Shown here: piece after piece, positions 6,575 through 60,515 of the stretch | Position numbering within the stretch: the first letter of the stretch is position 1 | How the letters are laid out: the number at the start of each line of letters is the position of its first letter | Origin: Streptomyces sp. NBC_01463 | Lineage (GTDB): Bacteria; Actinomycetota; Actinomycetes; Streptomycetales; Streptomycetaceae | DNA: 64,000 nt | Direction of reading: 5' to 3' | NCBI GenBank assembly: GCA_036227345.1 | Contig: CP109468.1 | Location: forward strand, 8,943,179-9,007,178 | Notes under the pieces: model-generated | The model's input: only the letters and a program-made list of their open reading frames with translations | What the model was told of the DNA's origin: nothing | Database searches by the model: none | Translations under genes and position numbers: made by a program

Positions 6575-6604
6575 TGAGTCCCTCCCACCGTTCTTGACGA
6601 TCAC

Positions 6605-40317: not shown

Positions 40318-40781
40318 GGGTACGCCGGAAGACCTGCCGCTGCCCGTTCGGCACGCCCTTGTTCCGATTTCTCGAGGAGACGGGGGTTGTTGGCGCGCAG
40401 GGTGCCGGCGTCGATGTGGATTGCGTCGGCCAAGGCACGTGCGGAGTCGACGTGGTCGAGGTCCTGCGGGTTGGGCAGCAGGTCCTGTCCGGGGTGGGTG
40501 TCGAGACAGCTGTCGGGGGAGGCGGCGGTGGAGAGCGGGACATGCGGGCGGGGCGTGGTGCGTCTGCAGGGCATGGGTGGGAAGGGCAGCGTTTCAGGCG
40601 GGGTGGGCAACGGTCCGGTCGGGAGCTTCCCGGAACGGTGCGGCGCCTTGTTCACGGGCGGCGGGGCAAGGGTGTGGTCGAGCCGGCCGATGATGTGGGT
40701 GGTGCCGGGGTTCGCCGGCAATCGGGCCGGTCTGCAGACCGGCCCGGGCCGCGAGTTGTAGGTACTCAGAATCGGCGTCAT
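40314..40781 (-). CDS. Hypothetical protein at head of a minus-strand operon
   Basis: The C-terminal 70 residues (DLLPNPQDLDHVDSARALAD, then AIHIDAGTLRANNPRLLEKS) are convincing. The upstream Pro-rich half makes the start uncertain: ATG 40781 or ATG 40574. The stop overlaps the next gene by GTGA. Divergent from the Tn7-like operon. Family unknown. Confidence 0.5.
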   Translation of the reverse strand: MTPILSTYNSRPGPVCRPARLPANPGTTHIIGRLDHTLAPPPVNKAPHRSGKLPTGPLPTPPETLPFPPMPCRRTTPRPHVPLSTAASPDSCLDTHPGQDLLPNPQDLDHVDSARALADAIHIDAGTLRANNPRLLEKSEQGRAERAAAGLPAYP

Positions 40782-40845
40782 GTTCTTGCAAGCGATGACT
40801 TCTGAGTAGCACTTATGACGCGGCGTTGAGACTCCCAGCCCGGAA

Positions 40846-40882
40846 TGATCACCCTTTCGAGTGATCGAAAGCGCGTGTGATC
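40846..40882. promoter_or_regulatory. Phased TGATC motifs and palindrome upstream of tnsA
   Basis: TGATC occurs at 40846, 40862 and 40878, exactly 16 bp apart. The middle copy lies in a perfect inverted repeat TTTCGA-GTGA-TCGAAA (40855-40870). It lies about 70 bases upstream of the presumed tnsA start, where a Tn7-type left end or operator would be expected. No TGT terminal sequence or paired right end could be established. Confidence 0.35.
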
Positions 40883-40950
40883 GTTCGTACCTCAGTGCCC
40901 GTGCAACTGTCCTGCGATCAAGGTCAGTTACACGAGTGCTGGGGTGGACG

Positions 40951-41730
40951 GTGGATGTAGAGGTGTGTGTTCGGCTTGCCGAGGAGGAGGCGTCTGAGGG
41001 CCTTGCCTGGGAGTCAGTGCCGTTGGAGATGCTGTACGCGGCCGAGCCGTGGCGGACGTTTCGCTGGTACATGGGGCAGAAGCACTAATCGGGTTCGTAC
41101 TGGTCGAGCACGCAGTCGGATCACGTGATCTACGAGTCGCGGCTGGAGCTGGCACGGCTGCTTTACGCGGACTTCGACCGGGATGTGACGGCGATCGTGG
41201 CCCAGCCCTTCTTGCTGCGGGCCGAAGTGGACGGAGTGCTGCGCCGGCACATCCCGGACTACCTGATGGCCACCACGGCAGGCCCACTGATCGTCGACGT
41301 CAAGCCACGGCACCGGGCGGCCAAGCCGGAGCACGCGTTCACCTTCGCCTGGACCCGCGAGGCGGTCGAGTCCCGCGGATGGCACTACGAGGTGTGGAGC
41401 GAACCGCCGGAAGCCGAGCTGGCTAACGTCCGGTTCCTCGCGGGCTACCGCCGCGACTGGCTGTTCGAGCCGGACCTGACCGAGGAGATATACGACCAGG
41501 CGGTGGAGGAGGAGTCACCGCCTGAGCGGCTGTTCGACCCGGTCATCCTCGATGAAGTACGCGACCGGGTTGTGGACGGGGGCACGCTGGGAGAAACCTT
41601 CGCCTGCCTGCCCGGTCGTCCGGCTCCGCTGGTGCGGGCCGGGGTCCTGCACCTGCTCTGGAAGCAGCAGTGGTCGGTCGACCTGAGCGTTCCCCTGAGC
41701 GCCCGCAGCGTGCTGAGGACGGCGCCGTGA
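40951..41730 (+). pseudogene. tnsA: TnsA-like transposon endonuclease with in-frame TAA
   Basis: Read from GTG 40951, the frame is open except for TAA at 41086-41088 (codon 46), located inside a well-conserved block: WRTFRWYMGQKH then stop then SGSYWSST. The rest keeps the TnsA nuclease residues: E in YESRLELARLLYADF, D in LRRHIPDYLM, and VDVK in PLIVDVKPRH (x-x-K). A C-terminal TnsA_C-like region follows. In Tn7, TnsA cuts the 5' ends and partners TnsB. A shorter product from GTG 41125 would lack the first 58 residues. Its TGA overlaps tnsB by GTGA. Confidence 0.85.
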
Positions 41731-43856
41731 GCCGGGCTGCGGTGCGGGTGGGAGTGGGGAGCCGCTTCTCCTACGACGGCGAGGTCGTCGAGGTGGTGGA
41801 ATTCGCCGGCACGCAGGCGGGCGGCGAGGTGGTCCTCAAGGACGGCCGGGGCCGGCTGCTGCGGCTGGCCGTCAAAGAACTGCTGCTGTCCGACCGCGCT
41901 CGCATCATCCCGGACGGGCCGGGGCCGGCCTCCGACGATCCGCATGAGACAGCGGCGGTGTTGCTGGGCCAGCTCGACGCCGGCGAGCGGGAGCGGGTGC
42001 TGGAGCGGGCCGCGCATGTCCGGGAGGTGCTGACCGGTTTCCGCAGTGGCAGCGAGGAACTGCCGGCCGCGGGGGAGCCTCGTGCTGCCTACGCGGCGGG
42101 TGAGCCGATGGAGAGTCGGTACGCGGCGAAGGCGGCCGAGCTCGAGGTAGCGACTCGCACGGTCAAGCGGTGGGTCGCGGCCTTCCGTCAGGATGGTGAA
42201 GCGGGACTGGTGCCGGCCCGCAGCGGGCCGCGTTCGGGGCACCGGAACGCGGAGGTGTGGTCGGAGGCGGCGCTGGAGGTGATGGTCGAGCACACGGGCC
42301 AGTCCAAGCCGTCGCGCAAGATGGTCATCGAGCGGACCCGGGCCCGGCTGCTGGCCAGGGGCTTTGCGGAGGAGGACCTGCCCAGCCGGGCGACCACCTA
42401 CCGCCTCCTGGAGGACCTGGAGCGGCGTCATCCGACGTTCCGGCTGAGCACGAAGCGGAACCGGGACATCGCCGGCCGGCCCGGCGGCGTCTACGGGAAG
42501 CTGCGGCCGACCCGGCCGGGCGAGTACCTGCTGATGGACACCAACCGGCTGGACGTCTTCGCCCTGGACCCGGTGACTCTGCAGTGGCTGCAGGCGGAGC
42601 TGACCGTTGCGATGGATTGGTACACCCGCTGCGTCTTGGGGATCAGGGTCACGCCGGTGTCGACGAAGGCCGTCGACGCCAGCGTCGCCCTCTACCAGGC
42701 GTTCCGCCCCCGGCCCGCGGGGGCCGACTGGCCGGCGCACGCGGTCTGGCCCGAACACGGCATCCCTCGGTCGGTGCTGATCGACGTCACCGCGCTTGAG
42801 GGGCCGATGCGTGGGGCGGCGTCGCCCGCGCTGGTGCCGGAGACGGTTCTGGTCGATCACGGCAAGGTGTTCGTTTCGGAGCATCTGACCAGCGTCTGCC
42901 GCCGGTTGGGGATCTCGGTGCAGCCTGCCCGGTTGCGGACTGGCCGGGACAAGGGCCCGCTGGAGAGATTTTTTCTGACCCTGCGCGAGGACCTGCTGCA
43001 GGCCCTGCCCGGCTACAAGGGGCCCGATCTGCACTCCCGGGGCGAGCGGCCGGAAGGGGAGGCGTTCTTCTTCCTCCACGAGCTTGAGGCGATCATCCGT
43101 GAGTGGGTGGCCTGCGTCTATCACCACCGGCCGCACACCAGTCTGGTCGATCCCGGGGTGCCGGGGCTGCGGATGTCGCCGGCTGCGATGTTCGAGCACG
43201 GGCTGAACCGGGCCGGCTACATCAAGGTCCCGCGCGATCCGGATCTGGCGTTTGAGTTCCTGCGGGTGGAACGGCGCAGGATCCAGCACTATGGCGTCGA
43301 CCTGGACGCACGCCGCTACAACGGCGCCGCCCTGGACTCCTACCGCGGTCTGCTCAGCGGCGAGCGGGATGGCAAGTGGCCCGTCGCGGTGAACCCGGAC
43401 GACATCAACGCGGTCTACTTCCGCGATCCCTCGAACCGCAGGTGGCATGCGCTGGCCTGGGAGCACGCACCGGGCCGGGACATGCCGGTGAGCGAGGAGG
43501 CATTGCAGTTCGCCCGCCGCCTGGCCGCGTCCCGCGACCGGTTCCCGGACGACAAGGCTGCGGTCCGTGACCTGTTCGAACGCTGGAACCTCGGTCTGGG
43601 CGTCACGCTGGTCGAGCGCCGGATGGCGCTGCGGCTCGCCCGGGAACAGAAGGCCCTGGATCTGCCCGAGCCCGAGGAGAGCGTCGCGACGCTGCCGAGC
43701 GTGAGACGCCTCATGGACTTGCCGGACGAGGCAGAACCGCAACTCGCCTCCGGGGCCGCACCGGAGACAGGCGACGACGACGCGGCTGACGAGGCCGAAT
43801 TCGTGGAGCTCGAAGACGACAGCGACTTCTACTCGGGCGCTCTGGAGGACGCGTGA
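41727..43856 (+). CDS. tnsB: TnsB-like DDE transposase of a Tn7-like element
   Basis: A 709-residue protein from GTG 41727. N-terminal SH3-like and helix-turn-helix segments (AAKAAELEVATRTVKRWVAA) bind the element ends. The retroviral-integrase-type core carries D271 (YLLMDTNRLDVF), D377 (VLVDHGKVFVS) and E413 (DKGPLERFFLT), with 35 residues between the last two. A Mu-type C-terminal beta-barrel and an acidic tail follow. It joins 3' ends to target DNA. Length and motif spacing are normal. Overlaps tnsC by GTGA. Confidence 0.93.
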   Translation: MSRAAVRVGVGSRFSYDGEVVEVVEFAGTQAGGEVVLKDGRGRLLRLAVKELLLSDRARIIPDGPGPASDDPHETAAVLLGQLDAGERERVLERAAHVREVLTGFRSGSEELPAAGEPRAAYAAGEPMESRYAAKAAELEVATRTVKRWVAAFRQDGEAGLVPARSGPRSGHRNAEVWSEAALEVMVEHTGQSKPSRKMVIERTRARLLARGFAEEDLPSRATTYRLLEDLERRHPTFRLSTKRNRDIAGRPGGVYGKLRPTRPGEYLLMDTNRLDVFALDPVTLQWLQAELTVAMDWYTRCVLGIRVTPVSTKAVDASVALYQAFRPRPAGADWPAHAVWPEHGIPRSVLIDVTALEGPMRGAASPALVPETVLVDHGKVFVSEHLTSVCRRLGISVQPARLRTGRDKGPLERFFLTLREDLLQALPGYKGPDLHSRGERPEGEAFFFLHELEAIIREWVACVYHHRPHTSLVDPGVPGLRMSPAAMFEHGLNRAGYIKVPRDPDLAFEFLRVERRRIQHYGVDLDARRYNGAALDSYRGLLSGERDGKWPVAVNPDDINAVYFRDPSNRRWHALAWEHAPGRDMPVSEEALQFARRLAASRDRFPDDKAAVRDLFERWNLGLGVTLVERRMALRLAREQKALDLPEPEESVATLPSVRRLMDLPDEAEPQLASGAAPETGDDDAADEAEFVELEDDSDFYSGALEDA

Positions 43857-44983
43857 ACAGCGAGGGCACCTGGACGCCGGGGGACTCCCACCGCCTGGAC
43901 GCGCTGACGCTCTCGCGCAAGGAGGGCTGGGCGGCGTTCGCGGGAGCCGCACCGCGGACACAGCCGGAACTACTGCCCTGCGGCGAGTACATGGCGCTGG
44001 GCGAGCGCGCGAAGGCGCAGTATGACCAGGCCCGGCGGGTCTGGCACGCGAACCTCGGGCCGCTGCGGACCCCGCAGCTGGCCGAGCTGCACGAGGACTT
44101 GTGGGACATCCTCGACAGCAACCAGCAGGACGGCGCCCAGGCCAAGGGCGCCGTGGCGGTGGACGCCGTCCCCGGACTGGGCAAGACGACCGCGGTGCTG
44201 GCCTTCGCCCGGGACTTCCACCGCCGGGAGATCGCCGAGGGCGGCGCGTTCACCGCCGGCGGGCACGAACGGCTCCCCGTCTGCCGGGTGGGCCTGACCG
44301 GGAACACCGGGATGAAGGACTTCAACCGGGCGATGCTGGAGTTCTTCGGTCACCCCGGCCGCACTACCGGCACCACCGCGCAGTTCGCCCAGCGAGCCCT
44401 GGACTGCGTGCTCTCCTGCGATGTGAAGCTGCTGATCGTCGATGATCTGCACTTCCTGCGCTGGAGGGCGGCCGGCGGCGTCGAAGTGAGCAACCACTTC
44501 AAGTACGTCGCGAACGAGTTCCCGGTCACGTTGCTGTTCGTGGGGGTCGGCCTGGCCAAGCGCGGCCTGTTCTCCGAGGGCGAGTCCTACGACAACGCGG
44601 TCCTGGCCCAGACGGGCCGGCGCACGACCCGTCTGGACATGGGGTCCTTCGAACTGACCACCGACCAGGGCCGCGACCAGTGGCGCCGGCTGCTGCTGGC
44701 GCTGGAGAAGCGCCTGGTCCTGCGCGACACCTACCGGGGCATGCTCGCCAACTACCTGTTCGACTACCTGTTCATCCGCTCCAGCGGCCACATCGGCTCG
44801 CTGATGACCCTCATCAACCGCGGCTGTCAGCGAGCCATCCGCACCGGCGCCGAGCGTCTGGACGAGGAACTTCTCAGCCGCGTCAAGATCGACCAGGCGG
44901 CGCACCTGGCCCAGGACGACGTACGCAATCTCCTGAAGGGACAGCGCTCCCGACGGACCCGCCAGAAGGCGGCCCGCCGGTGA
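43853..44983 (+). CDS. tnsC: TnsC/TniB-like AAA+ ATPase
   Basis: A 376-residue protein. Walker A at about 102-112 (DAVPGLGKTTAVLAFAR), Walker B at about 192-200 (VKLLIVDDLHFLRW), and a sensor-like YVANEFPVTLLFVGVGLAKR. It should form ATP-dependent filaments that link the target selector TniQ to the TnsB transposase. GTG overlaps the tnsB stop; its own stop overlaps tniQ (GTGA). A basic C-terminal tail (QRSRRTRQKAARR) may bind DNA or TniQ. Confidence 0.93.
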   Translation: MNSEGTWTPGDSHRLDALTLSRKEGWAAFAGAAPRTQPELLPCGEYMALGERAKAQYDQARRVWHANLGPLRTPQLAELHEDLWDILDSNQQDGAQAKGAVAVDAVPGLGKTTAVLAFARDFHRREIAEGGAFTAGGHERLPVCRVGLTGNTGMKDFNRAMLEFFGHPGRTTGTTAQFAQRALDCVLSCDVKLLIVDDLHFLRWRAAGGVEVSNHFKYVANEFPVTLLFVGVGLAKRGLFSEGESYDNAVLAQTGRRTTRLDMGSFELTTDQGRDQWRRLLLALEKRLVLRDTYRGMLANYLFDYLFIRSSGHIGSLMTLINRGCQRAIRTGAERLDEELLSRVKIDQAAHLAQDDVRNLLKGQRSRRTRQKAARR

Positions 44984-47326
44984 CGCACGCGCGGACCCTG
45001 CCGATCCGCCTCGCCCCGCAGCCAGGCGAGGCACTCGACTCCTGGTGGGAGGCGATCGCCCACAGACTGGGCACCACCACCGGCGACGTCCTGACCTCGA
45101 TGGGACTGCTGCCCTGCGGATCCTCCCGGCCGGTGGACTCGGGCATCCTGAGACGCCTGGTCACCCTCCTCGACGCGGACCAGGCAGCAGCCATCTCATG
45201 GTCGGCCGGCCCCACCCCGGCACAGGCACACGCCATGACCCTGGCCCGCTACGACCAACGAGCCCTCGTCGTCGACGCACAGCGGCGACGCGTCGAGGCG
45301 AGGCATGTCTGGGGGAGGGCCCGCGGGTCTCGCTACTGCCCGGCCTGCCTGGCCGCGACCGGCGGCAGATGGCGGCTGAACTGGAGACTCGGCTGGTCCT
45401 TCGCCTGCCTCGATCACCGCCTGCCCCTGCTGCAGCCGCATGCCCCGGCACTTCCCGACGACCACCCGGCACCCGCTCCCTCCGGGCCGCTGCCACAGCC
45501 CCTCGGAGAACGATGCGCCGCCGGCGCGCTGCGGCCAGCCGTTCGACGAGGTTCCCGCACTCACGCTCGCCGCGACCGGACCTGTGATCGCCGCCCAGAA
45601 GCTCATCGAGGAGGCCATCGCCTGCAATCGGGCCGGCTTCGGCGTCTACCAGGATCGTCCCCAGCCCAGCCTTGCGCTGTTCGGAGACCTCCGGGCACTG
45701 ACCTGCATCCTCCTTCGCCGCGTCCCCGATCCTGACCGGCTGGCGGGCTTCGCCCCGCCCGAGATCCTGGCGCTGCACCGGCAGCCCCTGCCCAAGAAGC
45801 GGCGGTCCTTCGACCCCGTCGAGGAAACCCGTCCGGGACGACTTGCCCCGCAACGGGCCGCAACTGCCGCCCTCGCAGTCAGCACGGCCCTGCACATCCT
45901 CGAGCACGGTGACATCCACGCGGCCGGAGCCGCTCTTCGACACCTGATCAGCGACGTCGACGGCACCATCCCGCTCAAGGTCGCACACCGATGGGCCCAC
46001 ACCAGCCCGGTTTTCGACGCGATCCATCTCGCGGCCCTCGCACCCCGCCTCAAGGGCACTGACCAGTTGCGTTACCGCACCGCGGACCGACGGCCGAGCA
46101 GGCCCGGACGCTCGGCGGCAACGCGGGCCACCGAGCGGGCCCGCAAGATTCCGACGCAGCTCTGGCCGGCCTGGTCCGCCCGGCTGAGTCCCCAGAACGG
46201 GGCCCTCTCGCGCACCATCCGCCCTGCCCTATCGTGCTACCTCCTGCTGATCGGGGGCACTGGGGACTTCCCCGCAGCGGCTCGTCTCCTTCATGCACCG
46301 GTGGAAGACAGGCTGGGATCTCACATGACGTTCCGGCTCACGAAGCGCGGCCACTTCAGGGACATCAGCCTCGGCCTGTCCGTGCTGGCGGACTACCTCG
46401 ACCAGGAAGGATCGCCGATCGACTACAACCGTCGCCGCACGGTCGACTACCGAAACCTGCTGCCGCTGGACACCTGGACGCAGCTCTGCCGGGACATCGG
46501 ATTCGAGGCTGGCGGAGTACGGCGCCACCAGTTCGCCCGAGCGCTGCTGTTCGAACGGCTCAGCGGGCTCCCCTGCACCCTCGCCCCGGCCGCCTACGCG
46601 CCCAGCACCACGGAACTGCGGACCATGCTGCGGACCTTCGAAACAGATCTCACCCCGACGCTGATAAGCCAACTCGAAGGACACGCAGCCGACTTCCTCA
46701 TCCAGCAGGGAATCCGCGACGAACCTCTCTCCTGGCAACCTCCGACTGACATCATCCGCGATCTTGAGCTGCCCGGGTGCGATCTGCGGGGCATCGACCC
46801 CGGCATGCTCCACCGCCTCATCAGGGACGAATGCCTGACAACAGCACAGGCCGCCCGTCGCCTGGGCGTCAGCCATGATGCTGTCCGATTCGTCCTGCAG
46901 GAGCAGCCGGCACCACCCGCAGAGGCGAAGAGCGCGAAGTGGGAGAGAGGAGCGACTGTTCGACGGGCTCGTGAAGCTCTCCCCAGAGACAAATTCGCAC
47001 GCTTCTACCTCGACGAATACCGCTCGCTCAAGTGGATCGCGGAGCACGTCGGCGTGAACGCCGAGGCGATCAAGGTCCTGGTCCGCGAATACGGCATGAA
47101 GCGCGACGGTGAAGCGACCCGCTGGCGCCAGATCGATCTCGACTGGCTCCGAGACCAACGCGCCGCTGGCCGCACCTGCCGCGCGCTCGCAGAGGAGACC
47201 GGCTTCTCGCTCGGAATGATCAGCTACCTGGGCCGCCGGCATGATCTGCCTGGTCGCCACCCCGGGGAAATCCGATCTCCCCCGAGAAGCACACCGGCAA
47301 TACGCCGTTATAGCAGGGCTGCATGA
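44980..47326 (+). pseudogene. tniQ: TniQ/TnsD-like target selector with a frame break
   Basis: GTG 44980 opens LPIRLAPQPGEALDSWWEAI, the TniQ N-terminal domain, with zinc motif YCPACLAATGGRW at about 118 and FACLDHRLPLL. Near 45430-45470 the correct frame changes; the continuation runs GRCHSPSENDAPPARCGQPF, then a 600-residue TnsD-like C-terminus with three helix-turn-helices (LTTAQAARRLGVSHDAVRFV; LKWIAEHVGVNAEAIKVL; CRALAEETGFSLGMISYLGR). The second Cys pair expected at the break is missing, so it is an indel, not merely a shift. TniQ chooses the insertion site. Confidence 0.88.
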
Positions 47327-47411
47327 CCTATCCCGGGCCAGTTCGGCGCCTACTACCGCTGTTACTCACCCGAATCGATGCCGCTGACCGACTTGGTGGA
47401 GGTTGCTGGAT

Positions 47412-47660
47412 CGAGATGGCAGGTGGGGGAGACTGCAGAGTGGGAAAAGACTGGCCGACCTCGATGAGCACCAGGTCCGCCGCTACCCCTCCTGGATCCG
47501 CTGGGGCACTCTCGCGAGGCTCGCCCACGCTTTTCTAGCTGTGGTTCGCGCCGGCGAACACGCTCACTTCCCCCGTCCGCACCGGTCGGGCTCATCCCGC
47601 GTCTTGCGACGAGATCCAGCGCCTGTTCATCACCCTCATCGATCCAGCCCAGATTTGCGT
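47412..47660 (+). mobile_element. IS701-type transposase C-terminal remnant
   Basis: LQSGKRLADLDEHQVRRYPS, then RWGTLARLAHAFLAVVRAGE is the IS701 C-terminal helix region. A frame change follows, after which DEIQRLFITLI is recognisable. It separates tniQ from the cargo-like genes. Confidence 0.75.
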
Positions 47661-47668
47661 GCGGAAGG

Positions 47669-48421
47669 CTACCAGGGCTTCGGGGTGGCATCCCTGATGC
47701 CGTGGTCCCGCAGCCAGTCGGTGAGGGAGGAGCCGAAGGAAGCGTGGGCCCCCTCGAGCGGGTGCTGCATATCCCCGGTCGGGAATCGGCCGATGATGTC
47801 CGTATAGAACGATGTGCGCGAGTTCGTCACCGAACCGCCGTAGACGGTTGCCGGGTCCAGGCCGCTGAGAAGCCTTCGAGTCTGCTCGTCCTGCCGGAAT
47901 CGCAGAACGTCCCATGCGAAGACGTACTTGCCCTGAACGCCTCTGGAGCGCAGGTATCCGTCGAGCATGAGCCAGTCCAGCGCGAAGTTGGTCATGGCCC
48001 CTTGAGCGCTCCACAGGTGCCGGTAGTAGGCCTCGGAAAGTTGGTCCTCGATCTGGATCCGCCATCTGCTCAAACGGTGCCAGCGCAACTCGTCGGGGAG
48101 GTTCGGTCGGTAGCCGTGCCCTTTGTCCCGCCGCCGCGTGAAGCACTCGTGACGGGAGAGGCCGGTCCACATGCAGATCACCAAAACTTCCTCGACGGAC
48201 ACCCGGTGTTCTGCGGCCAGGCGGTCTAGTTGGCCAACGGTCGTGCGGACGACCCGCCGGTTCGAGCCTCCGTCGCAGCCCAGGTTGACCCACGGCACAT
48301 CCAGTGCATTGGCTACGAGGGTCGGCCACGCATCCTGTGCCCGCCCCAGTTCCGCTCCACGGGTGTAGCTGCACCCGTTGGCGACGAGAAGGCGGACGGG
48401 CTGAGACGTCAGGGGAGTCAA
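47669..48421 (-). CDS. SGNH-hydrolase-like protein
   Basis: TTG 48421 overlaps the carbamoyltransferase stop (TTGA), giving 250 residues. It opens VRLLVANGCSYTRGAELGRA, the block I GxS-like motif of SGNH/GDSL-type proteins (here C-S-Y), followed by WVNLGCDGGSNRRVVRTTVG (block with G and N). No signal peptide, so cytoplasmic. A bacteriocin/phage-associated clade shares this form. Coupling to a carbamoyltransferase suggests a joint small-molecule or glycan modification pathway. Confidence 0.65.
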   Translation of the reverse strand: MTPLTSQPVRLLVANGCSYTRGAELGRAQDAWPTLVANALDVPWVNLGCDGGSNRRVVRTTVGQLDRLAAEHRVSVEEVLVICMWTGLSRHECFTRRRDKGHGYRPNLPDELRWHRLSRWRIQIEDQLSEAYYRHLWSAQGAMTNFALDWLMLDGYLRSRGVQGKYVFAWDVLRFRQDEQTRRLLSGLDPATVYGGSVTNSRTSFYTDIIGRFPTGDMQHPLEGAHASFGSSLTDWLRDHGIRDATPKPW

Positions 48422-49884
48422 TGGACGCTCACTCCTTCCCTGTCGCCGAAGGCTTTGGCTTCCTGCCAGGTATTCACCAGTGGCTCCCCACGGGAGTTCA
48501 GACTCGTGTTGAGGAGGACGGGGCAGCCTGACGCGTCCTCCCATTGCCGGAGCAGTTCGTACAGGACCGGATGCTCGCTCTGGGAGACGCTTTGGACCCG
48601 GCTGCTGCCGTCTACATGCACAACGGCGGGAAATTCCGCTGGTTCGCGGCACCGTGCGGTGAACTGCATGTACGGGGTGCTCGGCACAGGGACGTCGAAG
48701 TAGTCGTGGAGCAGCTCCTCGCGGATCATGGGCGCGAACGGCCGGAACTTCTCACGCCCCTTCACCCCGTTGACGCGGTCCTTCATGTCCGCCGACCGGG
48801 GGTCGGCGAGGAGAGACCGGTTGCCCAGCGCTCGCGGCCCGAATTCCGCGGCGCCGTTGGCGACGGCGGCCATGCCATCCGTCCTCAGACTTCTCACCAC
48901 CGCCGGGATGTCAAGGTCACGCTGGATAGGTGTTCCCAGGTATGGCCCGCTCCATCGCAACGGCTTCCGCAGATGGGCGGCGGCGGCTCCGAGGCTCGAA
49001 CCGGCATCCCCTGGGTTGGGGAAGATCCACAGGCGGGAGAAGCCGGCTTCGCGGGCGATGGCGGAGTTGGCGACGCAGTTCAGCGCCACACCGCCCATGA
49101 GGATCAGGTTGGGCGCACCGATTTCCTTGCGCGCCCAGGACGCGGCCTCGACGAGCACCCTCTCGGTTACTACTTGCATGCTGGCAGCGAGGTCCTCGGG
49201 GCGCGCGTCGGGTAGCCACCCTCCGATGCCCCGGTGGACGTTATACGTCAGCGAGTAACCCGGCGTGTCCAGGGATATCCACGTGTCGAGGATGTCATCG
49301 ACGTAGCGAGGCCGCCCATAAGCGGCCATGCCCATGAGGATGTACTCGTCCTCGTTGGGCTTGAAACCACATCGTCGAGTGAATGCGCTGTAGAGCAGCC
49401 CGAGACTATGCGGATAGCGGCGCCGATAGCGAAGTTGAAGGCCTGATTCCGGGGAGTAGGAGAAGACGGTGAAGCAATCGAACTCCCCTATGGCGTCGGC
49501 GACGATGACGGCCGCCGAGTCGAACCCGCTTGTGGCAATTCCGGCCCAGGCGTGCGCTTCGTGATGCCTCACGTAGGAGACGGGCGTCCTGTGTGGCAGG
49601 CCGATCGACCGCAGATACCGACTGGGTAGGTCGGAAGTCGACATCGCGTGATGCCATTGACCCGCCCGCATGTGTCGCAGCTTCTTAACCAACGGTCGTT
49701 CGTACCAGATGACCTCGTCCGGCGCGCCGAAACTTCTGGCTTCTCGGATCAGCTCGGGATGGAGTAAAGCATCGTTCTTTATCCGGGAATAGCGTTCTGA
49801 ATGCGCTGCGAAAACAAATTTCTCGTCCTGCACAACGGCCAGGGACGCGTCGTGGGAAAGCGCAGATACTCCCCAAGTGATCAC
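48418..49884 (-). CDS. NodU/TobZ-type carbamoyltransferase
   Basis: A 488-residue protein. The Kae1-like N-terminal domain has LSHDASLAVVQDEKFVFAAH and the metal-binding VSYVRHHEAHAWAGIATSGF. NLILMGGVALNCVANSAIAR is the nucleotide loop. The C-terminal domain carries EFGPRALGNRSLLADPRSAD and VLLNTSLNSRGEPLVNTWQE. The family transfers carbamoyl from carbamoyl phosphate via carbamoyl-AMP to sugar hydroxyls in Nod factors and antibiotics. Slightly shorter than typical (550-570). Forms a tight pair with the SGNH-like gene; divergent from the GH13 gene. Confidence 0.93.
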   Translation of the reverse strand: MITWGVSALSHDASLAVVQDEKFVFAAHSERYSRIKNDALLHPELIREARSFGAPDEVIWYERPLVKKLRHMRAGQWHHAMSTSDLPSRYLRSIGLPHRTPVSYVRHHEAHAWAGIATSGFDSAAVIVADAIGEFDCFTVFSYSPESGLQLRYRRRYPHSLGLLYSAFTRRCGFKPNEDEYILMGMAAYGRPRYVDDILDTWISLDTPGYSLTYNVHRGIGGWLPDARPEDLAASMQVVTERVLVEAASWARKEIGAPNLILMGGVALNCVANSAIAREAGFSRLWIFPNPGDAGSSLGAAAAHLRKPLRWSGPYLGTPIQRDLDIPAVVRSLRTDGMAAVANGAAEFGPRALGNRSLLADPRSADMKDRVNGVKGREKFRPFAPMIREELLHDYFDVPVPSTPYMQFTARCREPAEFPAVVHVDGSSRVQSVSQSEHPVLYELLRQWEDASGCPVLLNTSLNSRGEPLVNTWQEAKAFGDREGVSVH

Positions 49885-49979
49885 AGCATCGGCCGATTCA
49901 CTTGTACATGAACGGATCGGTGCGCCGCAGGCGCCATCGTTTGACCGTCCACGCCACTCGATGAAATAAGGAGCGCACA

Positions 49980-51800
49980 GTGCTGATCATGATCCCCCAG
50001 TCCCGGCCGGCCGAGTTCGCGTTCGAGTACAGCACGGATCCAGCAGCGGAACAAGACCGGCTGAAGTGCACGGTCTGGACCGGTCGGCCGGAAATGTCTA
50101 TGGTCCCGACCATGATTCCTGCCGCACACCAGTCGCCGTGTCCGCGATCGGAAGGCCCCGTTCCGGAAGTCGGGGCGCCGGAGAGTATCGCCGAGATCTC
50201 ACTCGCGAAGTCTGATGCGCGCCAGTATCACGCCTCACCGGATGACTGGCGCAAAGAGATCCTCTATTCCATTGTCGTGGACCGCTTCCAGACCGATACG
50301 CCAGCGACTGTTGAGGGAGATCCGGGCGATGGTCGTTCACGGCACGGGGGAAATCTCCGAGGGCTCTCAAAACGACTCGACTACATCCGCGATCTTGGTG
50401 GCACGGCGATTCATCTCACTCCAGTCGTACTCAACGGCCCCGGCTCATATCATGGATATGCGCCCCGATATTTCATGGCAGTGGATCCTCGGCTCGGCAC
50501 CATGGAGGATTTCCGGCAGCTTGTTTCCGGAGCCCACGACCGCGGCATCCGTGTCGTGCTCGACCTCGTACTGAACCACGCCGGTCCTGTGTTCGAGTAT
50601 GCCGACGGGAGTAACATCTGGAGGGGCAGGGGGGAGGCTGCAAGCATTCGTGACAACGAGATCTGGATCCGTCCGCTTGAACTTGCCTCGCCGCAACACT
50701 TCTCGCGGCACGGCGTCATTGACGATTGGAACGACACCGAGCAGGAGACTCTGGGGGATTTCCCACCGGACTATCGCAGACTCGCGACGGAGAACCCGGA
50801 TACGCAGCGAATCCTTCAGTCCATCGCGTGCTGGTGGATCCGGGAGTCCGATATCGACGGAATCCGTCTTGATGCGGTCCGACACATGGACCGCTCCTTC
50901 GTGGCGAGACTGTGTGACACCGTCAGGAATTATGCCGATCACCTGGGGAAGGACAACTTTCTGATCATCGGGGAGCACGCAAGCGACGACGACACGTTGA
51001 TTGCTTCATGCTTCGACTCCGGAATGGGCGCCGTCTATAACTACGGTGAATACCGACGCCAGAGTTGGGCCCTCCACGGCCAGGCACCCGCGAGAGAACT
51101 GGAGGAGAGCTTCGATATCGCGTCGAAGGCATTCAGCTGCGATCACGGATTCACGATCAGATTCATCGACAACCATGACGTCTACCGATTCCTCCGGGAC
51201 GCCGAGCCTGTGGGGCGCCTCCGGGTAGCCCTCGCCCATCTGATCCTCTCGATCGGCATTCCCATGCTCTATTACGGAACCGAGCAGGGATTCCGCCAAT
51301 CTACACAGCGGCTGGAACCTGAGCATCTTCAGGATCCTGCTGATCCGGGAAACAGAGAGGATATGTTTCCCGAGGGAAGGTTCACGTCGCCCAGCTCCTA
51401 TGGCGACAGGTTCGACAGATCCTCGCCGTTCTTTCGGTGGACCAGGCGGCTCATCGAGCTTCGCCGACGGCATACGGCGCTGCACCTCGGGGAAGAGAAG
51501 ATCCTGTTCTCGGAACTCGACCGACCAGGCATTTACGCCTTCGTGCGCCACCGCGATGGCGAACGTGTTCTGGTCGTGCTGAATACCAGCTCTCGCCCAC
51601 TCACCCGCGAGCTGCCCGTCCACGCGCTTTTCGAACCAGAGGCCCCCATCAGCCACAACCACCTTCCCTGGAACCCCTCCCTGCAGGACCTTCTCTACTT
51701 TCGCGCAGCGATCTCGGTACGCCGGGCGCCTGGTGGACAGCTTGTCGCGGATGTCACGCTCCCGGCGCTCGGAGTTGGCGTTTTTGGCCCCTCAGCGTGA
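49980..51800 (+). CDS. GH13 alpha-amylase-family glycosidase
   Basis: GTG 49980 has AAGGAG 7 bases upstream. 606 residues. Family regions: DLVLNHAGPVFEYADGSN (region I), DGIRLDAVRHM with the nucleophile near D298, FLIIGEHAS with the acid near E332, and RFIDNHDVYRF with the stabilising Asp near 400. An N-terminal extension of about 85 residues has no signal peptide, so it acts inside the cell, probably on an oligosaccharide or trehalose-type substrate. Base composition is visibly less GC-rich than tnsB/tnsC upstream. Confidence 0.92.
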   Translation: MLIMIPQSRPAEFAFEYSTDPAAEQDRLKCTVWTGRPEMSMVPTMIPAAHQSPCPRSEGPVPEVGAPESIAEISLAKSDARQYHASPDDWRKEILYSIVVDRFQTDTPATVEGDPGDGRSRHGGNLRGLSKRLDYIRDLGGTAIHLTPVVLNGPGSYHGYAPRYFMAVDPRLGTMEDFRQLVSGAHDRGIRVVLDLVLNHAGPVFEYADGSNIWRGRGEAASIRDNEIWIRPLELASPQHFSRHGVIDDWNDTEQETLGDFPPDYRRLATENPDTQRILQSIACWWIRESDIDGIRLDAVRHMDRSFVARLCDTVRNYADHLGKDNFLIIGEHASDDDTLIASCFDSGMGAVYNYGEYRRQSWALHGQAPARELEESFDIASKAFSCDHGFTIRFIDNHDVYRFLRDAEPVGRLRVALAHLILSIGIPMLYYGTEQGFRQSTQRLEPEHLQDPADPGNREDMFPEGRFTSPSSYGDRFDRSSPFFRWTRRLIELRRRHTALHLGEEKILFSELDRPGIYAFVRHRDGERVLVVLNTSSRPLTRELPVHALFEPEAPISHNHLPWNPSLQDLLYFRAAISVRRAPGGQLVADVTLPALGVGVFGPSA

Positions 51801-51939
51801 GGGCGAGGCACCCAAGGCGGAGGCTCGGACGACGCCTCCCTTGGGGGAGTGCAACTCGCGGCCGCAGATCCTCAGACAAACAGGCCGGCTGCCTCTCACG
51901 GCCGGCGCGGGGGCGGTACTGATTCGGCAGGCTGGTGAG

Positions 51940-52093
51940 CGCCGCTCACATTCGCAGCGGGCCGCGAGCTCGCCGAGTAGACCGGCTTCTCGCTAGGAAT
52001 GATCAGCTACCTGGGCCGACGGCACGACCTGCCCGGCCGCCGCCCGGGGAGAACCGATCGCACTTTGAGATTGAGACCAGCAATACCCCGTCA
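51940..52093 (+). pseudogene. Second, degenerate copy of the tniQ 3' end
   Basis: In frame it reads GRELAE, stop (TAG), then TGFSLGMISYLGRRHDLPGR, nearly the same as tniQ positions 47199-47266, and nucleotide similarity continues past the coding end (AATACCCCGTCATAACGGGG versus AATACGCCGTTATAGCAGGG). About 50 codons survive. Together with tniQ itself it brackets the SGNH/carbamoyltransferase/GH13 block. Confidence 0.85.
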
Positions 52094-52171
52094 TAACGGG
52101 GATGCATAGTCTATCCTGAACAGGTCACCTCGGTATCTCCCACCACCGAGGCGGCCTCGCAAGGAGGCGCG

Positions 52172-52708
52172 ATGATCCAGATCACCCTCGGCAAGAAGAA
52201 GAACGTCGACCCGAACAGCGACCCCCTCCAGCGCTCACAGATCGGCTGGAGCGATGGGCTGTCCGACCAGCAGCTCCACGACATCGCCCGCGGCGTCTGG
52301 GTCATGCCCGGATCACGCGTCGAACGAGAGCGGTTCGCGGTCGTCAACGGCGGCGGGATCATCCGCCAGGCCATGGAGATTGAGCGGATCGTCGACGTTC
52401 CTGGCGGGCGACGGGCCTTCGAAGGCCGCATCCTCGGCCCCGGGCACCCCGTCCACGACCACTACGTCGGCAAGCCCGCCCCGAATGGCACCCAGCAGAA
52501 CCCCATCACCTACTTCGACTCCCCCCTCGGCAACCGCGAATGCAACTGCGGATGCGGCAAACCCATCAGCCGCGGCGACTTCCTCCCCGGCCACGACCAG
52601 CGAGCCATCCACGAGAGAATCGCCCGCATCGGAACCGTGAAGGACTTCATCACCTGGTTCGACCAGACCTGGAAGCCCGACGAAGCCCAGCAAGGCGAAG
52701 CCGCGTGA
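52172..52708 (+). CDS. Hypothetical protein with CxCxC motif
   Basis: ATG 52172 with AAGGAGG 4 bases upstream. 178 residues: SDQQLHDIARGVWVMPGSRV, then RRAFEGRILGPGHPVHDHYV. The C-terminal module has RECNCGCGKPISRGDFLPGH, DQRAIHERI and a Trp-rich end. The Cys cluster plus GHDQ could be a metal site. The module recurs at the C-terminus of other actinobacterial proteins as I recall it. Its stop overlaps the next gene by GTGA. Unknown function. Confidence 0.75.
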   Translation: MIQITLGKKKNVDPNSDPLQRSQIGWSDGLSDQQLHDIARGVWVMPGSRVERERFAVVNGGGIIRQAMEIERIVDVPGGRRAFEGRILGPGHPVHDHYVGKPAPNGTQQNPITYFDSPLGNRECNCGCGKPISRGDFLPGHDQRAIHERIARIGTVKDFITWFDQTWKPDEAQQGEAA

Positions 52709-53487
52709 GGAAATGCCACCGAACTGAGACCGAAACCGCGGGACATCTGATGAGACAGCAGCACAAGCAGCAGGTCACCGCGGTCCGGAATGACACCGGC
52801 GGCGCGAACCTACACGAGTACCGGGTTGCCGGCCCCGGCCCGGCGGTACGCCGGGTCACGGTGCCCGTGGGCGCGGCCGTCGCCCGGCTGCGCTGCACGA
52901 TCGCCGACGCGTTCGCGCTGAAGGTGCGCTGTGCCAGCCGGCGCAGCACCACTGACCAGGCTCTGGCCGCAGCGCGGCAAGGGCCGCATGTGCTGGTGTG
53001 CGACGATGCCGAGCGCCTGTTCCTGCCTGTCCTGGACTACCTGTGCCGTCTGGCCGCCGATTGTGGCGTGCCCGCTGCTCGTGTCCCTCGTGTCCCTCGC
53101 GTTCTGGCCGGTACTGGAACTGGTACTGGAACTGGAGCTGGTACGGGAGCCGGTACTGGTACTGGTACGGGAGCCGTGCCGGATGCGGCCCTGGCCGTGC
53201 GGCGGGTGCCGGGACTGGTCTTCCGTATCCGGGCTCGCCGGTGCATCCGGCTGTCGGCCTCTGTTCAGGCGCTGTGTGCACGGTCTGCCTTTCACGCGTT
53301 GTGGGCGAGGGTGGCATCACTGCAGAGCGTCCGGGCCGGCGGGTGCTGTGCCCGGGGGAACTTGGCGCTCCTTCGCCGAGAGCACCGTGTACATCATTGG
53401 TTCCGTCCTGACGGATCCCTTCGCGTACACCGGCAGTGCCGGTGCTTCCTGTTGGAGGTGGCATCCCGTTGCCTCGGGCGCGCTTGA
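52706..53487 (+). CDS. Degenerate AAA/TniB-like ATPase with repeat expansion
   Basis: GTG 52706 overlaps the preceding stop; ATG 52751 is an alternative. TTDQALAAARQGPHVLVCDD (Walker B-like CDDA), then RLFLPVLDYLCRLAADCG, and later AVRRVPGLVFRIRARRCIRL and GGCCARGNLALL match the order of blocks in TniB/AAA_22 proteins. No Walker A is seen. At the loop where relatives have LLAGTGT, a microsatellite encodes repeated Gly-Thr/Gly-Ala. Probably inactive or rapidly evolving; assignment is tentative. Confidence 0.45.
53109..53175 (+). repeat. 6-bp microsatellite encoding Gly-Thr/Gly-Ala repeats
   Basis: About eleven consecutive hexamers of the form GGTACT, GGAACT, GGAGCT, GGTACG or GGAGCC. In frame this is GTGTGTGTGAGTGAGTGTG. 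The period keeps the frame, so copy number can vary without breaking the protein. Confidence 0.92.
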
Positions 53488-53705
53488 GCGATTACTCTCC
53501 CGCGGCCCGGAACCGGGGGGTGTGGAGCCACCGGGGGTCCGGAGGCGATGGCGACGCCGGCGGAGGACTTGGCCGGGTCGTGGATGCCGATGCCCTCCCG
53601 GGCTCCGGGGGACGCTGCCACCAGTGGTGGCCGGTACGCGCCACCCCCAGGCCGACTCGCGGTACGGGCGGGGATGCCGGGCCACAACCGTCATTTACGT
53701 CATCC

Positions 53706-53723
53706 GTACGCGTTCAGTACGCG
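53706..53723 (+). promoter_or_regulatory. Direct repeat GTACGCG upstream of tap
   Basis: GTACGCG at 53706-53712 and 53717-53723, spaced one helical turn (11 bp), 43 bases before the tap start. A candidate operator for the Tap helix-turn-helix or another regulator. The 53488-53766 gap holds nothing else recognisable. Confidence 0.35.
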
Positions 53724-53766
53724 AAAGGTGCGCTTCAGGCTAGGGTTGGGGGACTGGAGGTGCTGC

Positions 53767-55989
53767 ATGTCAGAGTTGTTCGATGCGGTTGATGCGCTGG
53801 TTTCGTCCCGTTCAACGCTGCCGCCTCCGGCGGAACGCAAGAGGCTGCGCCAGGCGCACGGCCTGACGCTGGACGAGGTGGCCGCCGCTCTGCAGGTGCG
53901 CCGGGCCACGGTGTCCGGCTGGGAGGCCGGCAGGACCGAACCGCGGCCGCCGGAGCGTGATGCCTACGCCCGCCTGCTGAAGCAGCTTGCCCAGCTCTAC
54001 CCCGCAGGCGCCCCGGTGCCCTGTGAGGACACGGCGGTCCCCGGGACGCCTGTCCTCGCAGCCGCTCCTGCGCCAACGGGAGCTGAACCGGCCAAAGCCC
54101 GCCCCGAACCCGCAGACCAGGCGCCGGGGCCTGTTTCCGAGGACACCGCGCTGGTCTCTGCCGTCGTGCCGGATCCGGTGGCCACGACCAGGCCGGCACC
54201 GCGTCGGCCGCCCGCGCGTAAGGCTGCCCCCGCCGCCAGCGACGGCGGTGGTGGTGATGCACGGTTCGAGAACGGGCCGCTCGCGGTCGTCGACGTCGAC
54301 GCAGATGGTCAGGTGCTGGCGTACTGCGTCGGGGGCCTGGTCCTGGACGTACCGGCGAAGTCGATCGCCGCTCTGGTGGAGTGGACGCTGAGCCAGGGGC
54401 GGCTCGGTCAGCCGAAGTTGTCCGGGCCGGGCAAGGACGGCGATCCGCTGCTCGTGCTCACCAGGGCTGCGCTGGAGTATTACGGCCTGCCGGTCACGCT
54501 CGCACCACAGGAGCGCCTGGCCGGGCGGATCCCGGAGGGCCACAAGGTCATCAAGCAGCTGACGCGCGCCAGCTGGCAGCTGACCAAGCGCGGCTTCGGG
54601 CCGTGGGCGCGGATCTACCGCCCCGCGCAGGGCTCGGAGCGGGCGTGCGTGCAGTTGTGCATCCCGTCGTGGGACGCGCTCGACACCCGGCACTGGGCGG
54701 ACACGGGGCAGCTGCCACCGGCGGATCTGGCCCGGCTGCTGGGCACGTATGCGGCCCGGGTGATGACGCCGCGCGGATCGACCGCCGTGACCGGTCTGGA
54801 ACTGATGACCGCCCTGCATCCGCCGACCCGTGCCTCCGAACCCGATGAGAGGGGCAAGCGGCACTCCGAGCACAACCCCGGCTCGCTGGGCAGGGACCCG
54901 GTTCAGTGTGCACCGTGCGAGGCTCCCGACGGCCACCCGCTGCTCGCGGACCTGCCGCGTTTCCACCACCGCACCCCGGCGGAGGTTCTGGTGGAGGAGG
55001 CGTACGACTGGGCGCGCCCGCTCACTGACGCCGAATGCCTGCACCGCAACCTGGTGGGCATCGATGTGAACATGGCCTTCGCCGCCGGCGCGAACGGCCT
55101 CACGGTCGGCCTGGGCGCACCGGTGCACGTCAAGAACCCCGTCTTCGACGCGAAACTGCCCGGCTCCTGGCTGGTCGACCTGTCCCATGCCGACCTGTCG
55201 AGGGTGAAGGTGGCCAAGGACACGTGGGCGGACCTGGACGGCTCGCTGCTGCCCAGCCCGTTCACACCGAAGGGTGAACGGCCCGAGGGCCCGGCGTGGT
55301 ACGCCACGCCCACCGTCGCCTACGCGGTGGAGCTCGGCTACGACGTGACACCGATCGAGGCATGGGTCCGGTACGACAACGGCCGTTACCTGGACGGCTG
55401 GTACCAGCGGCTGCGTGACGCCTACCTGGCTACGATGGCCGACCTCGGGGTGGGCGCCGATCTGTCGCCGGAGGAGTTCTTGAAGGCGATGGACGGCTAC
55501 CGGCAGCGTGACCCTGAGCTGGCGATCGTGGTGTCCGCGGTCAAGGCGTCCGTGAAGGGCGGCATCGGCAAGCTGCGCGAGCGCCCGCGCGGCGAGGGCT
55601 GGAAACCTGGGCAGCCCTGGCGGGCCCTCGCCCGGCCCACCTGGCGGCCGGACATTCGCGCCGCCGTTATCTCCCGGACCCGGATCAACATGCACCGCAA
55701 GATCGTCAGGCATGCCGCTTTCACCGGGCAGTACCCGGTCGCGGTCCTCTCGGACTGCGCCGTCTACGCCTCCCAGGGGCCCTCCCCGCTGGACTTCCTG
55801 CCCTACCGGGACGGCAAGCCGCTGCCCGGCGGCTTCAAGCTCGGGGTGAACCCAGGCCTGGTGAAGTGGGAGGGCACCCAGAGCGTGCTGTGGGGCGAGG
55901 GCGTCCGCGAGCAGTTCCACGCCCCCGAGCTCAACCTCGCCCGGTACATCAAGGACGGCACCGTCACCGACGTCGACAGGGGAGAGTAG
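53767..55989 (+). CDS. tap: Telomere-associated protein Tap
   Basis: A 740-residue protein, the size of Streptomyces Tap. ATG 53767 with GGAGG 6 bases upstream. Residues 18-60 form a helix-turn-helix (LRQAHGLTLDEVAAALQVRR, ATVSGWEAGR). A variable Ala/Pro linker (about 80-160) precedes the large conserved domain with VVDVDADGQVLAYCVGGLVL, LTKRGFGPWARIYRPAQ and LGTYAARVMTPRGSTAVTGL. Tap binds the single-stranded telomere 3' overhang and recruits Tpg for end patching. Followed by tpg after 12 bases. Confidence 0.95.
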   Translation: MSELFDAVDALVSSRSTLPPPAERKRLRQAHGLTLDEVAAALQVRRATVSGWEAGRTEPRPPERDAYARLLKQLAQLYPAGAPVPCEDTAVPGTPVLAAAPAPTGAEPAKARPEPADQAPGPVSEDTALVSAVVPDPVATTRPAPRRPPARKAAPAASDGGGGDARFENGPLAVVDVDADGQVLAYCVGGLVLDVPAKSIAALVEWTLSQGRLGQPKLSGPGKDGDPLLVLTRAALEYYGLPVTLAPQERLAGRIPEGHKVIKQLTRASWQLTKRGFGPWARIYRPAQGSERACVQLCIPSWDALDTRHWADTGQLPPADLARLLGTYAARVMTPRGSTAVTGLELMTALHPPTRASEPDERGKRHSEHNPGSLGRDPVQCAPCEAPDGHPLLADLPRFHHRTPAEVLVEEAYDWARPLTDAECLHRNLVGIDVNMAFAAGANGLTVGLGAPVHVKNPVFDAKLPGSWLVDLSHADLSRVKVAKDTWADLDGSLLPSPFTPKGERPEGPAWYATPTVAYAVELGYDVTPIEAWVRYDNGRYLDGWYQRLRDAYLATMADLGVGADLSPEEFLKAMDGYRQRDPELAIVVSAVKASVKGGIGKLRERPRGEGWKPGQPWRALARPTWRPDIRAAVISRTRINMHRKIVRHAAFTGQYPVAVLSDCAVYASQGPSPLDFLPYRDGKPLPGGFKLGVNPGLVKWEGTQSVLWGEGVREQFHAPELNLARYIKDGTVTDVDRGE

Positions 55990-56001
55990 GAGAACGCGAC
56001 G

Positions 56002-56559
56002 ATGAGCCTGTTCGGGGACGGCCTGGAAGCCGCGGTGCAGAAGGCGTTCACCCGCCCGGCGCCGAAGAGCGCGGGCCCGCAGATGCGCTACCTGGTCAAG
56101 CAGCTGGGGGGCACCAAGGCGGTCGCCCAGATGCTGCGCATCTCCCAGCGCACCGTCGAGCGGTACGTGAAGGACCAGATCAGGAAGCCCCGCCCGGACC
56201 TCGCCGCCCGCCTGGAGCGCGAGGTGAAGGCCCGCTGGCAGCCGCAGATCCGTGCCAAGGCCAAGGCGAAGGCCGCGTCCACGGGCGGCATCGTCGTCGA
56301 CACCCGCGCCCGCATCGGCTACACCGCACCGATCGGGTCGACGGACCAGGACCGCATCCGCCACCTGACCATCGCCCTGCCGCCCCGCTACGCCGCCCGC
56401 CTCTTCGACGCCCAGGAGCAAGGCGCCACCGACCAGCGGCTCCAGGAGATCGCGGCCGAAGCGCTCAAGGAGGTGTACTTCCAGGACGGCGGCCGCCGCG
56501 CCGGCAGCCTGGAAGAGGTCCGGTTCACGGACATCGAACACCTCGAGTTCGACCTGTAG
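56002..56559 (+). CDS. tpg: Telomere terminal protein Tpg
   Basis: A 185-residue protein, the usual Tpg length, with AGGAG upstream of ATG 56002. It contains QMRYLVKQLGGTKAVAQMLR, then ISQRTVERYVKDQIRKPRPD (helix-turn-helix, reverse-transcriptase-like thumb similarity reported for the family) and DTRARIGYTAPIGSTDQDRI. Tpg is covalently attached to the 5' telomere ends and primes end synthesis. Operon with tap, closed by a strong hairpin. Confidence 0.95.
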   Translation: MSLFGDGLEAAVQKAFTRPAPKSAGPQMRYLVKQLGGTKAVAQMLRISQRTVERYVKDQIRKPRPDLAARLEREVKARWQPQIRAKAKAKAASTGGIVVDTRARIGYTAPIGSTDQDRIRHLTIALPPRYAARLFDAQEQGATDQRLQEIAAEALKEVYFQDGGRRAGSLEEVRFTDIEHLEFDL

Positions 56560-56563
56560 ATCC

Positions 56564-56610
56564 CAGCGGAAGGGCCCGAACCGCCCTCTGGGCGCGGGCC
56601 CTTACCGCTG
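56564..56610. terminator. Terminator hairpin after tap-tpg
   Basis: CAGCGG-A-AGGGCCCG pairs with CGGGCCCT-T-ACCGCTG around a 16-base loop, starting 5 bases after the tpg stop. Confidence 0.85.
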
Positions 56611-56664
56611 CTCCTGGCTTTGCCGAGCCGGTGAGACCGGGAATTGCCGGACTCCGCGCCTGGA

Positions 56665-57020
56665 ATGCGGCCCGTGAATCAGGACTGGATGAGACAGCGG
56701 CTTGAGGCGTTCGACAACCTGACCCTGCGCTGCGAACGCAGGACAGGGCCAGGCCCTTACGCGGGTGATCCGGCACTGTATGAGCAACCGCACCGCGCAG
56801 AGCCCACGGTCAAGCAGATCCGGCGGCTCCCAGACCCGCAGCTCGCCGAAAAGCCCGGCCTCGGTCAGACGGCAGGCGAAGACCTGGCCCGCAACGAGGT
56901 TCACAGAGGCACTGGGCATCCTTGCCGACCTGGACGACCGGGCTGCCCGGCTCCCACCGGATGCGCCCACCCTGCCCGCCGGCCGGCTCCCACCCCTGGG
57001 CGTGGGAGCCGGCCGCCGAC
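56665..57020 (+). pseudogene. Hypothetical small protein, frameshifted
   Basis: From ATG 56665: RPVNQDWMRQRLEAFDNLTL, then KQIRRLPDPQLAEKPGLGQT and ARNEVHR. At about 56905 the good frame shifts by one, to read ALGILADLDDRAARLPPDAP. The combined product is a helical protein of about 120 residues. No family recognised. Confidence 0.45.
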
Positions 57021-57037
57021 CTCGCCGAGGACTCCAC

Positions 57038-57110
57038 GAGGGTCCGGGTGACAACGACTGTGATGCCGGCGAACCCAGAGGGTCCGGGTGACAACAGCTG
57101 TGATGCGGCG
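57038..57110 (+). repeat. Two copies of a 40-bp-period direct repeat
   Basis: GAGGGTCCGGGTGACAAC followed by CTGTGATGC with GGCG begins at 57038 and again at 57078; copies differ at about four positions including one missing base. It lies in the gap between the frameshifted gene and the GAF-SpoIIE gene. Could be a protein-binding array or recombination scar. Confidence 0.75.
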
Positions 57111-57265
57111 AGCCCACCGCGATCTTGAGCATGTGCCGTCCGATCACTGAGGGGACGTGACTGATCGTGGTCAGCGAGGGCGGGCGACAGGAAGGCTGTC
57201 GTGGGGGATGGGGGCGTGATTTGCTATGTGCCCGAACAGGGCCCGAGGGAGTTGCTGGACCGGTG

Positions 57266-58597: not shown

Positions 58598-58791
58598 CGG
58601 TCTCCACCAGCCCCCAGGAGTGACATGCCGGTCAGATGGACCACGCGGGCGGACCCGACCACGACCTGACCGCCCCCAACGCCCGGTTCCATAGCCCTGA
58701 CACCTACGTGCTGCCCCCTGAGGCATCGCGGGCCCGGACAGCCATGCGGAATTCGGAACAGCCTTTGCCCGCGCCGCCGCGTCCGGCTACC

Positions 58792-58836
58792 CCCTGCCCG
58801 GCCCTGCCCGGCCCTGCCCGGCCCTGCCCGGCCCTG
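58792..58836 (+). repeat. 10-bp tandem repeat CCCTGCCCGG
   Basis: Four full copies plus a partial one. A small open frame (58636-58839) ends in this repeat, with a Pro/Ala/Cys-rich C-terminus; its N-terminus (DHAGGPDHDLTAPNARFHSP) could be genuine but I do not recognise it. Confidence 0.85.
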
Positions 58837-58890
58837 TGAACGAGACCTTCCTTGGACGGCTGTCCGTCACCTGGCCTTCTCCACGAGACT

Positions 58891-59030: not shown

Positions 59031-59131
59031 GGGATCCTGCAGCACCAAGGAGCCGTTGGTCCGGGTTCCGGGCCCTGACGTACGTTCGGGCCTATGACGC
59101 AGCAGGCCCTGAAAACCCGACCGGTGGCCCA

Positions 59132-60460: not shown

Positions 60461-60515
60461 CGAGGACGCGCCGCGGGCAGACGTGGTCAGCGGTCACACA
60501 AGCGCCCAGACGGCC

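Follow-up and report, generated by a model that had tools for sequence, protein, structure and literature searches.

The window, the whole 64,000-nucleotide stretch analysed here, very probably (roughly 85%) contains a Tn7-like transposon with complete ends but decayed genes, belonging to a family whose home site is the 3' end of tap, the gene for the telomere-associated protein of linear replicons. The evidence for this homing comes from the close relatives of the element, all nine of which have a junction at tap/tpg, on chromosomes as well as on linear plasmids. The copy in the window lies elsewhere, and is a member of this family by descent (considering its TnsB, its ends and a conserved gene for a 178-aa protein) and not by site.

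The element and its genes

The window comprises the last 64 kb of a contig of 9,007,178 bp. The ends of the element were located by comparison with two relatives, G019 (96%) and Streptomyces pacificus CWH03 contig 25 (G359; 93%). The features are as follows.

40752..40756, no strand: left target duplication CGAGT, 5 bp, perfect
40757..52814, plus strand: whole Tn7-like element, 12,058 bp, delimited by end homology to nine relatives and the matching duplication
40951..41730, plus strand: tnsA, with an in-frame TAA; NF033179 match, motifs kept downstream
41727..43856, plus strand: tnsB, 709 aa, DD(35)E
43853..44983, plus strand: tnsC, 376 aa, AAA+/TniB
44980..47326, plus strand: tniQ (TnsD-like target selector), interrupted by a change of frame
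47669..48652, minus strand: cargo, DUF6071 protein (family search)
48418..49884, minus strand: cargo, carbamoyltransferase (family search)
49980..51800, plus strand: cargo, alpha-amylase family protein (family search)
51961..52097, plus strand: fragment that repeats the 3' end of tniQ
52172..52708, plus strand: 178-aa gene, function unassigned, conserved just inside the right end
52815..52819, no strand: right target duplication CGAGT, 5 bp, perfect
53055..63950, no strand: terminal inverted repeat of 10,896 bp, an exact match to positions 1-10896 at the other end of the contig
53548..55989, plus strand: tap, unoccupied (NF047542, 1103.8 bits)
56002..56559, plus strand: tpg (terminal protein gene), assigned from its location and its resemblance to the tpg-like genes of the right junctions

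The element starts with TGTAGGTA at 40757 and finishes with ACCTACA at 52814; its terminal sequences are TGTAGGTACTCAG on the left (from 40757) and GAACCTACA on the right (up to 52814). Thus, the TGT/ACA ends and the 5-bp duplication that a preliminary description of this DNA had proposed to look for around the operon are indeed there, and they enclose an element that is longer than the operon itself (40951-47326). As candidates for arrays of TnsB binding sites, only repeats of 6-9 bp were seen in the terminal 160 bp of the ends.

The order tnsA-tnsB-tnsC-tniQ and the GTGA overlaps given in that description hold at all three joints. The same is true for the catalytic signatures it listed: TnsB has D271, D377 and E413, the DD(35)E arrangement, and TnsC has the Walker A sequence AVPGLGKT and the Walker B sequence LLIVDD, together with matches to TniB and AAA_22. 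Moreover, a phmmer comparison with PDB chains supported the proposed Tn7-like identity, as TnsB matched Tn7-like TnsB chains (the best being Scytonema TnsB, 7.5e-23) and TnsC matched the TnsC of Vibrio (2.1e-06) and also that of Scytonema. A target selector of the TniQ/TnsD type, a feature of membership in the Tn7-like group, is present as well, its first piece matching PF06527 with 76.7 bits.

The idea of a complete module that forms one translational unit was not supported. Codon 46 of tnsA is an in-frame TAA (41086-41088), and tniQ is divided by a frameshift into a first frame that is open to 45735 and a second one at 45440-47326. Because of this stop and this change of frame the window copy has no intact translational unit. 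Downstream of the tnsA stop, the open reading frame 41125-41730 still contains the E, D and K motifs, and the TnsA piece matches NF033179 (TnsA_like_Actin) with 186.5 bits. Both lesions could in principle be sequencing errors in a copy that is in fact intact: the frame change in tniQ falls in a GC-rich stretch, a usual place of indel errors in sequencing. Nevertheless, we regard this as unlikely, considering that a single operon carries two separate lesions and that one of them is a stop codon without any change of frame.

The duplicated 3' end of tniQ on the far side of the cargo genes is perhaps a scar left by recombination when the cargo was gained. No Cas family was found among the part of the element's open reading frames that was scanned with Pfam, and ARAGORN finds no tRNA gene in the window, so that a link of the element to a tRNA gene was dropped. 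To the left of the element lie a short tandem repeat, TCGGTGGA, of 4-5 units (38559-38598) and IS4/IS5-type transposase genes (34402-35319 and 27262-28515), which are usual for Streptomyces arms.

Close relatives are inserted at tap/tpg

We have searched for the TnsB in 392 Streptomyces genomes, GTDB contigs and plasmids, and found it at 91-96% identity at nine loci besides the window: in G019, S. pacificus, Streptomyces sp. CB01580, PR69, Kitasatospora sp. MAA19 and the linear plasmids of NBC_00257, NBC_00984, NBC_01520 and ITFR-21. Together with the window copy these form one clade of the TnsB tree (SH-aLRT 100). The left end lies inside the last codons of tap in seven of the nine. For PR69 and MAA19, whose contig stops before the left junction, the right end lies just before a tpg gene (52% and 38% identical to the tpg of the window, respectively). 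One of the seven, NBC_00984, shows the left junction only, beside a truncated tap fragment; a right end was detected neither in the 42 kb around the element nor in the initial 38 kb of the record. Where both ends share one record, the length of the element varies from 7,262 to 19,205 bp. The tniQ gene is uninterrupted (770-794 aa) in six relatives (G019, PR69, MAA19, NBC_00257, NBC_00984 and NBC_01520), whereas it has a shortened frame in CB01580, an insertion near its 5' end in ITFR-21 and is cut by contig ends in S. pacificus.

A common position could reflect shared descent, in which a single ancestral insertion beside tap-tpg would have been carried along by linear plasmids and chromosome ends, tap being no recognised target at all. 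All hosts are Streptomycetaceae with linear replicons, as such hitch-hiking would have it, and the insertions in G019 and NBC_00257, which have tap DNA that is 93% identical and the same duplication, may well be one event. For the family as a whole, however, we consider the explanation very improbable, as it is already contradicted by the junctions. Six relatives have an identical 5-bp duplication on both sides, and these duplications, each perfect, are distinct and lie at different codons: CGACG in G019, NBC_00257 and S. pacificus (on two contigs), TACAT in CB01580, CAAGA in NBC_01520 and CAGCC in ITFR-21. In addition, a comparison of six loci showed that the tap DNA before the junction is only 64-73% identical in 14 of 15 pairs (G019/NBC_00257 being the exception), whereas the tnsB DNA is 89-94% identical throughout. 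Since the tap DNA has diverged far more than that of the element in those 14 pairs, most insertions are separate events.

The gene for the 178-aa protein is found at nine of the ten loci of the clade, the window included, and reads toward tpg. The protein is 81-95% identical in eight of the nine relatives; in NBC_00984 the gene was not found. It matches no Pfam or NCBIfam family, and its predicted structural model (pLDDT 36.5) is too poor for use. Judging from its position, the gene may restore the expression of tpg, although this is a guess.

Spacing and the tap reading frame

An alignment of tap 3' ends revealed a conserved block, PGxxKx[EQ]Gx[QE]xxxW, upstream of the insertion, with indels between the two. 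The distance from the Trp codon of this block to the duplication is 53 nt in six of seven loci and 51 nt in CB01580, while IK codons near the junction shift from locus to locus. The fact that the spacing is held despite local indels means that the site is set by its distance from upstream sequence, as in Tn7.

This constancy also bears on the proposal that the lineage aims only loosely at the terminal or replicating DNA of linear replicons, that tap is struck merely because it is terminal, and that the window copy displays the real preference. The window copy does fit that proposal, with a perfect duplication at a place that misses the terminal repeat by 235 bp and the start of tap by 0.7 kb. 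It is, however, one off-target copy and thus a single case, while a spacing that is constant within 2 nt across seven tap insertions requires that sequence is read; moreover, the elements of NBC_00257 and ITFR-21 are located well inside their plasmids. We therefore give a loose terminal aim very little credence.

The distance has a further consequence for homing to tap, because it keeps the phase in which the TGTAG of the element's end closes the tap frame at once. Closure follows after one new residue in six of the seven loci; in CB01580, 16 residues are added and there is no immediate stop. Tap and Tpg act at Streptomyces telomeres, where they initiate end patching by protein priming (PMC4513846). 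With such a role, it would matter that Tap is trimmed instead of knocked out.

Taken together, a most likely course of the insertion can be formulated. The TniQ is TnsD-like and has helix-turn-helix units towards its C-terminus. It would bind tap around the codons of the conserved block, and TnsC would bridge it to TnsAB, which would then place the element, in a single orientation, about 53 bp further downstream. The TGTAG end would close the frame and trim Tap by a few residues, and the trimmed protein would presumably still work. The tpg gene would be left beyond the right end, behind the 178-aa gene, and may be expressed from the element. The TniQ model of a relative matches TnsD/TniQ structures, with a best Foldseek E-value of 2e-3 and none below 0.001.

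The position of the window copy

The tap gene starts about 6.2 kb to the right of the operon end, and the window ends at the contig end, which agrees with the closeness of the operon to tap-tpg (some 6 kb) and to a replicon end reported in the preliminary description. Both tap and tpg are located inside the terminal repeat; the element is not, and ends 0.73 kb before the tap open reading frame. On the question raised there, whether the target is a telomere-linked gene, the answer is affirmative for the family and negative for the window copy, which lies outside tap. In fact, the insertion site that the spacing rule predicts in the window's tap (about 55947-55951) is empty, and no remnant of tap was seen at the flanks of the element, which are unlike tap. 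A search for the pre-insertion site, the comparison suggested at the same time, was carried out with the left and the right flank in 61 genomes each, and found only partial or short matches outside the genome itself, so that an empty site was not identified.

The matching duplication of the window copy argues for a direct jump to its present place. The plain reading is a chance off-target insertion, perhaps with a weakened TniQ; it is also possible that the site was reached by a route that favours terminal DNA.

The genome contains a third tap-tpg pair in the left arm, outside the terminal repeat (G000:C1:45515-48472; L035, L102). Its tap match is 76% identical and has in-frame stop codons; its tpg is 87% identical and open.

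A sister set behind dnaB

In 38 of 84 sister loci the element is directly preceded by dnaB (L040, L041, L047, L051, L127, L153, L155 and 31 more, L145 standing for L051), and 34 of these 38 are inserted 7-11 nt after the dnaB stop. The hosts include Streptomyces, Mycobacterium, Tsukamurella, Nocardia and others. Another 37 of the 84 are found at neither dnaB nor tap. Empty 5-bp pairs occurred in only 16 of the about 80 sister rows scanned, some of them chance-like, and 12 were inspected. The dnaB-homers resemble the family of the window in gene order, TGT[AG]GG ends and 5-bp duplications, with TnsB sequences that are mostly 43-70% identical, but differ in their site past the dnaB stop and in TniQ, where the quarters of the protein are mostly 29-42% identical. 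The 178-aa gene was not found in the fetched sister loci of this set. As the TniQ sequences of the two sets can be aligned, a comparison of the two lends itself to finding out which residues of TniQ recognise which DNA, and tools for inserting DNA at chosen sites in Streptomyces could result from it. In three mycobacterial elements (L142, L161 and L163) the adjoining dnaB is split by about 1.25 kb between its matching parts, which we take to be what an intein would do.

Relation to known Tn7-like systems

The ends of Tn7 are TGT/ACA, and Tn7 solves the problem of staying at home or travelling with two selectors, TnsD and TnsE. The occurrence of tap-tpg on chromosomes and on linear plasmids implies that a single site can be both a low-harm home and a way onto transfer vehicles, which would be another answer to this problem. 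With Tn7 (TnsD, attTn7) the tap family shares TnsA, TnsB and TnsC, a large selector of the TniQ family, 5-bp duplications, the TGT/ACA ends and an insertion at a fixed distance from the coding sequence that the selector reads, this reading by TniQ being probable in the case of tap. According to PMC2918618, TnsD recognises the final 36 bp of glmS, and Tn7 inserts about 25 bp beyond them. The attachment site in glmS is not used here: the relatives use tap and the window copy another place. Furthermore, insertion is inside the last codons, with the element's own end closing the frame, whereas it is intergenic in Tn7.

A survey of Tn7-like elements (Benler 2021, PMC8649781) describes, in the part available, a clade dominated by Actinobacteria with no experimentally characterised member, and gives no tap or dnaB target for it there. 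By description, this clade is a likely home of the window family. Tn7706 of Rhodococcus erythropolis (PMC12915292) likewise has Tn7-like tnsA, tnsB, tniQ and tniB and comes from an actinobacterium with linear plasmids; compared by description and not by sequence, no tap or dnaB target is named in the accessible text. The main texts available of two surveys (PMC8649781 and PMC10293859; supplements outside scope) contain neither 'telomere' nor 'dnaB'. More generally, no report of tap or dnaB as a Tn7-like site was found in the literature covered, which left most subscription papers and the supplements outside its scope. Thus, tap appears to be a new and well-defined target site for Tn7-like elements, a replication gene that marks linear replicons, and tap-tpg, needed by linear chromosomes, is marked as a place of gene gain.

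A second Tn7-like set at chromosome ends

Many distant TnsB matches from the search of 392 genomes lie near chromosome ends, where tnsA-tnsB-tnsC is combined with a TniQ that carries helicase-associated (HA) domains in fusion (L064:9580-16859, L059:7980-15031, L120:11666-15987 and other chromosome-end loci). There are six HA domains in L064 and five in L059; the TniQ part scores 26.5 bits, just under the 27.0 cut-off. Genes for a ttrA-like helicase, tap or tpg adjoin the set in many loci. The TniQ-HA of L064 has matches in 26 of 199 genomes, though none in the genome of the window at the search threshold. In the ten of these genomes for which the length of a chromosome-size contig was available (all eight single-contig ones plus G066 and G108, with 16 more fragmented ones left out), none of the 19 places is more than 53.1 kb away from a contig end, whereas the expected share in that zone is about 1.4%. 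In 5 of 18 loci we found a TGT/ACA pair that has a 5-bp duplication and whose end bases match at 7 or more of 8 positions. Three of these five (L063, L068 and L072) share TGTCCTGT ends, and none of the three has a full TniQ-HA gene behind tnsC.

We tentatively suggest, while holding it to be somewhat less than an even chance, that a specialisation of Tn7-like transposons on linear replicon ends has arisen two or more times, in one case by a move of the TniQ site from dnaB to tap and in another by fusion of TniQ to HA domains. On the same tentative footing, these domains would be like those of the telomere-linked helicase TtrA, and the selector would aim at, or live on, terminal DNA. The TniQ-HA set may even be of use to its host when chromosome ends are exchanged or rebuilt. 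No report that joins Tn7-like elements with telomeres, tap/tpg, linear plasmids or HA domains was found in the literature covered. On a linear plasmid (NZ_CP108735.1, 675-8996; L188), helicase genes and the genes for a DNA-binding protein, TnsA, a Mu-type transposase and TniB lie in a row at the very left end, an instance of this second Tn7-like set at the end of a plasmid.
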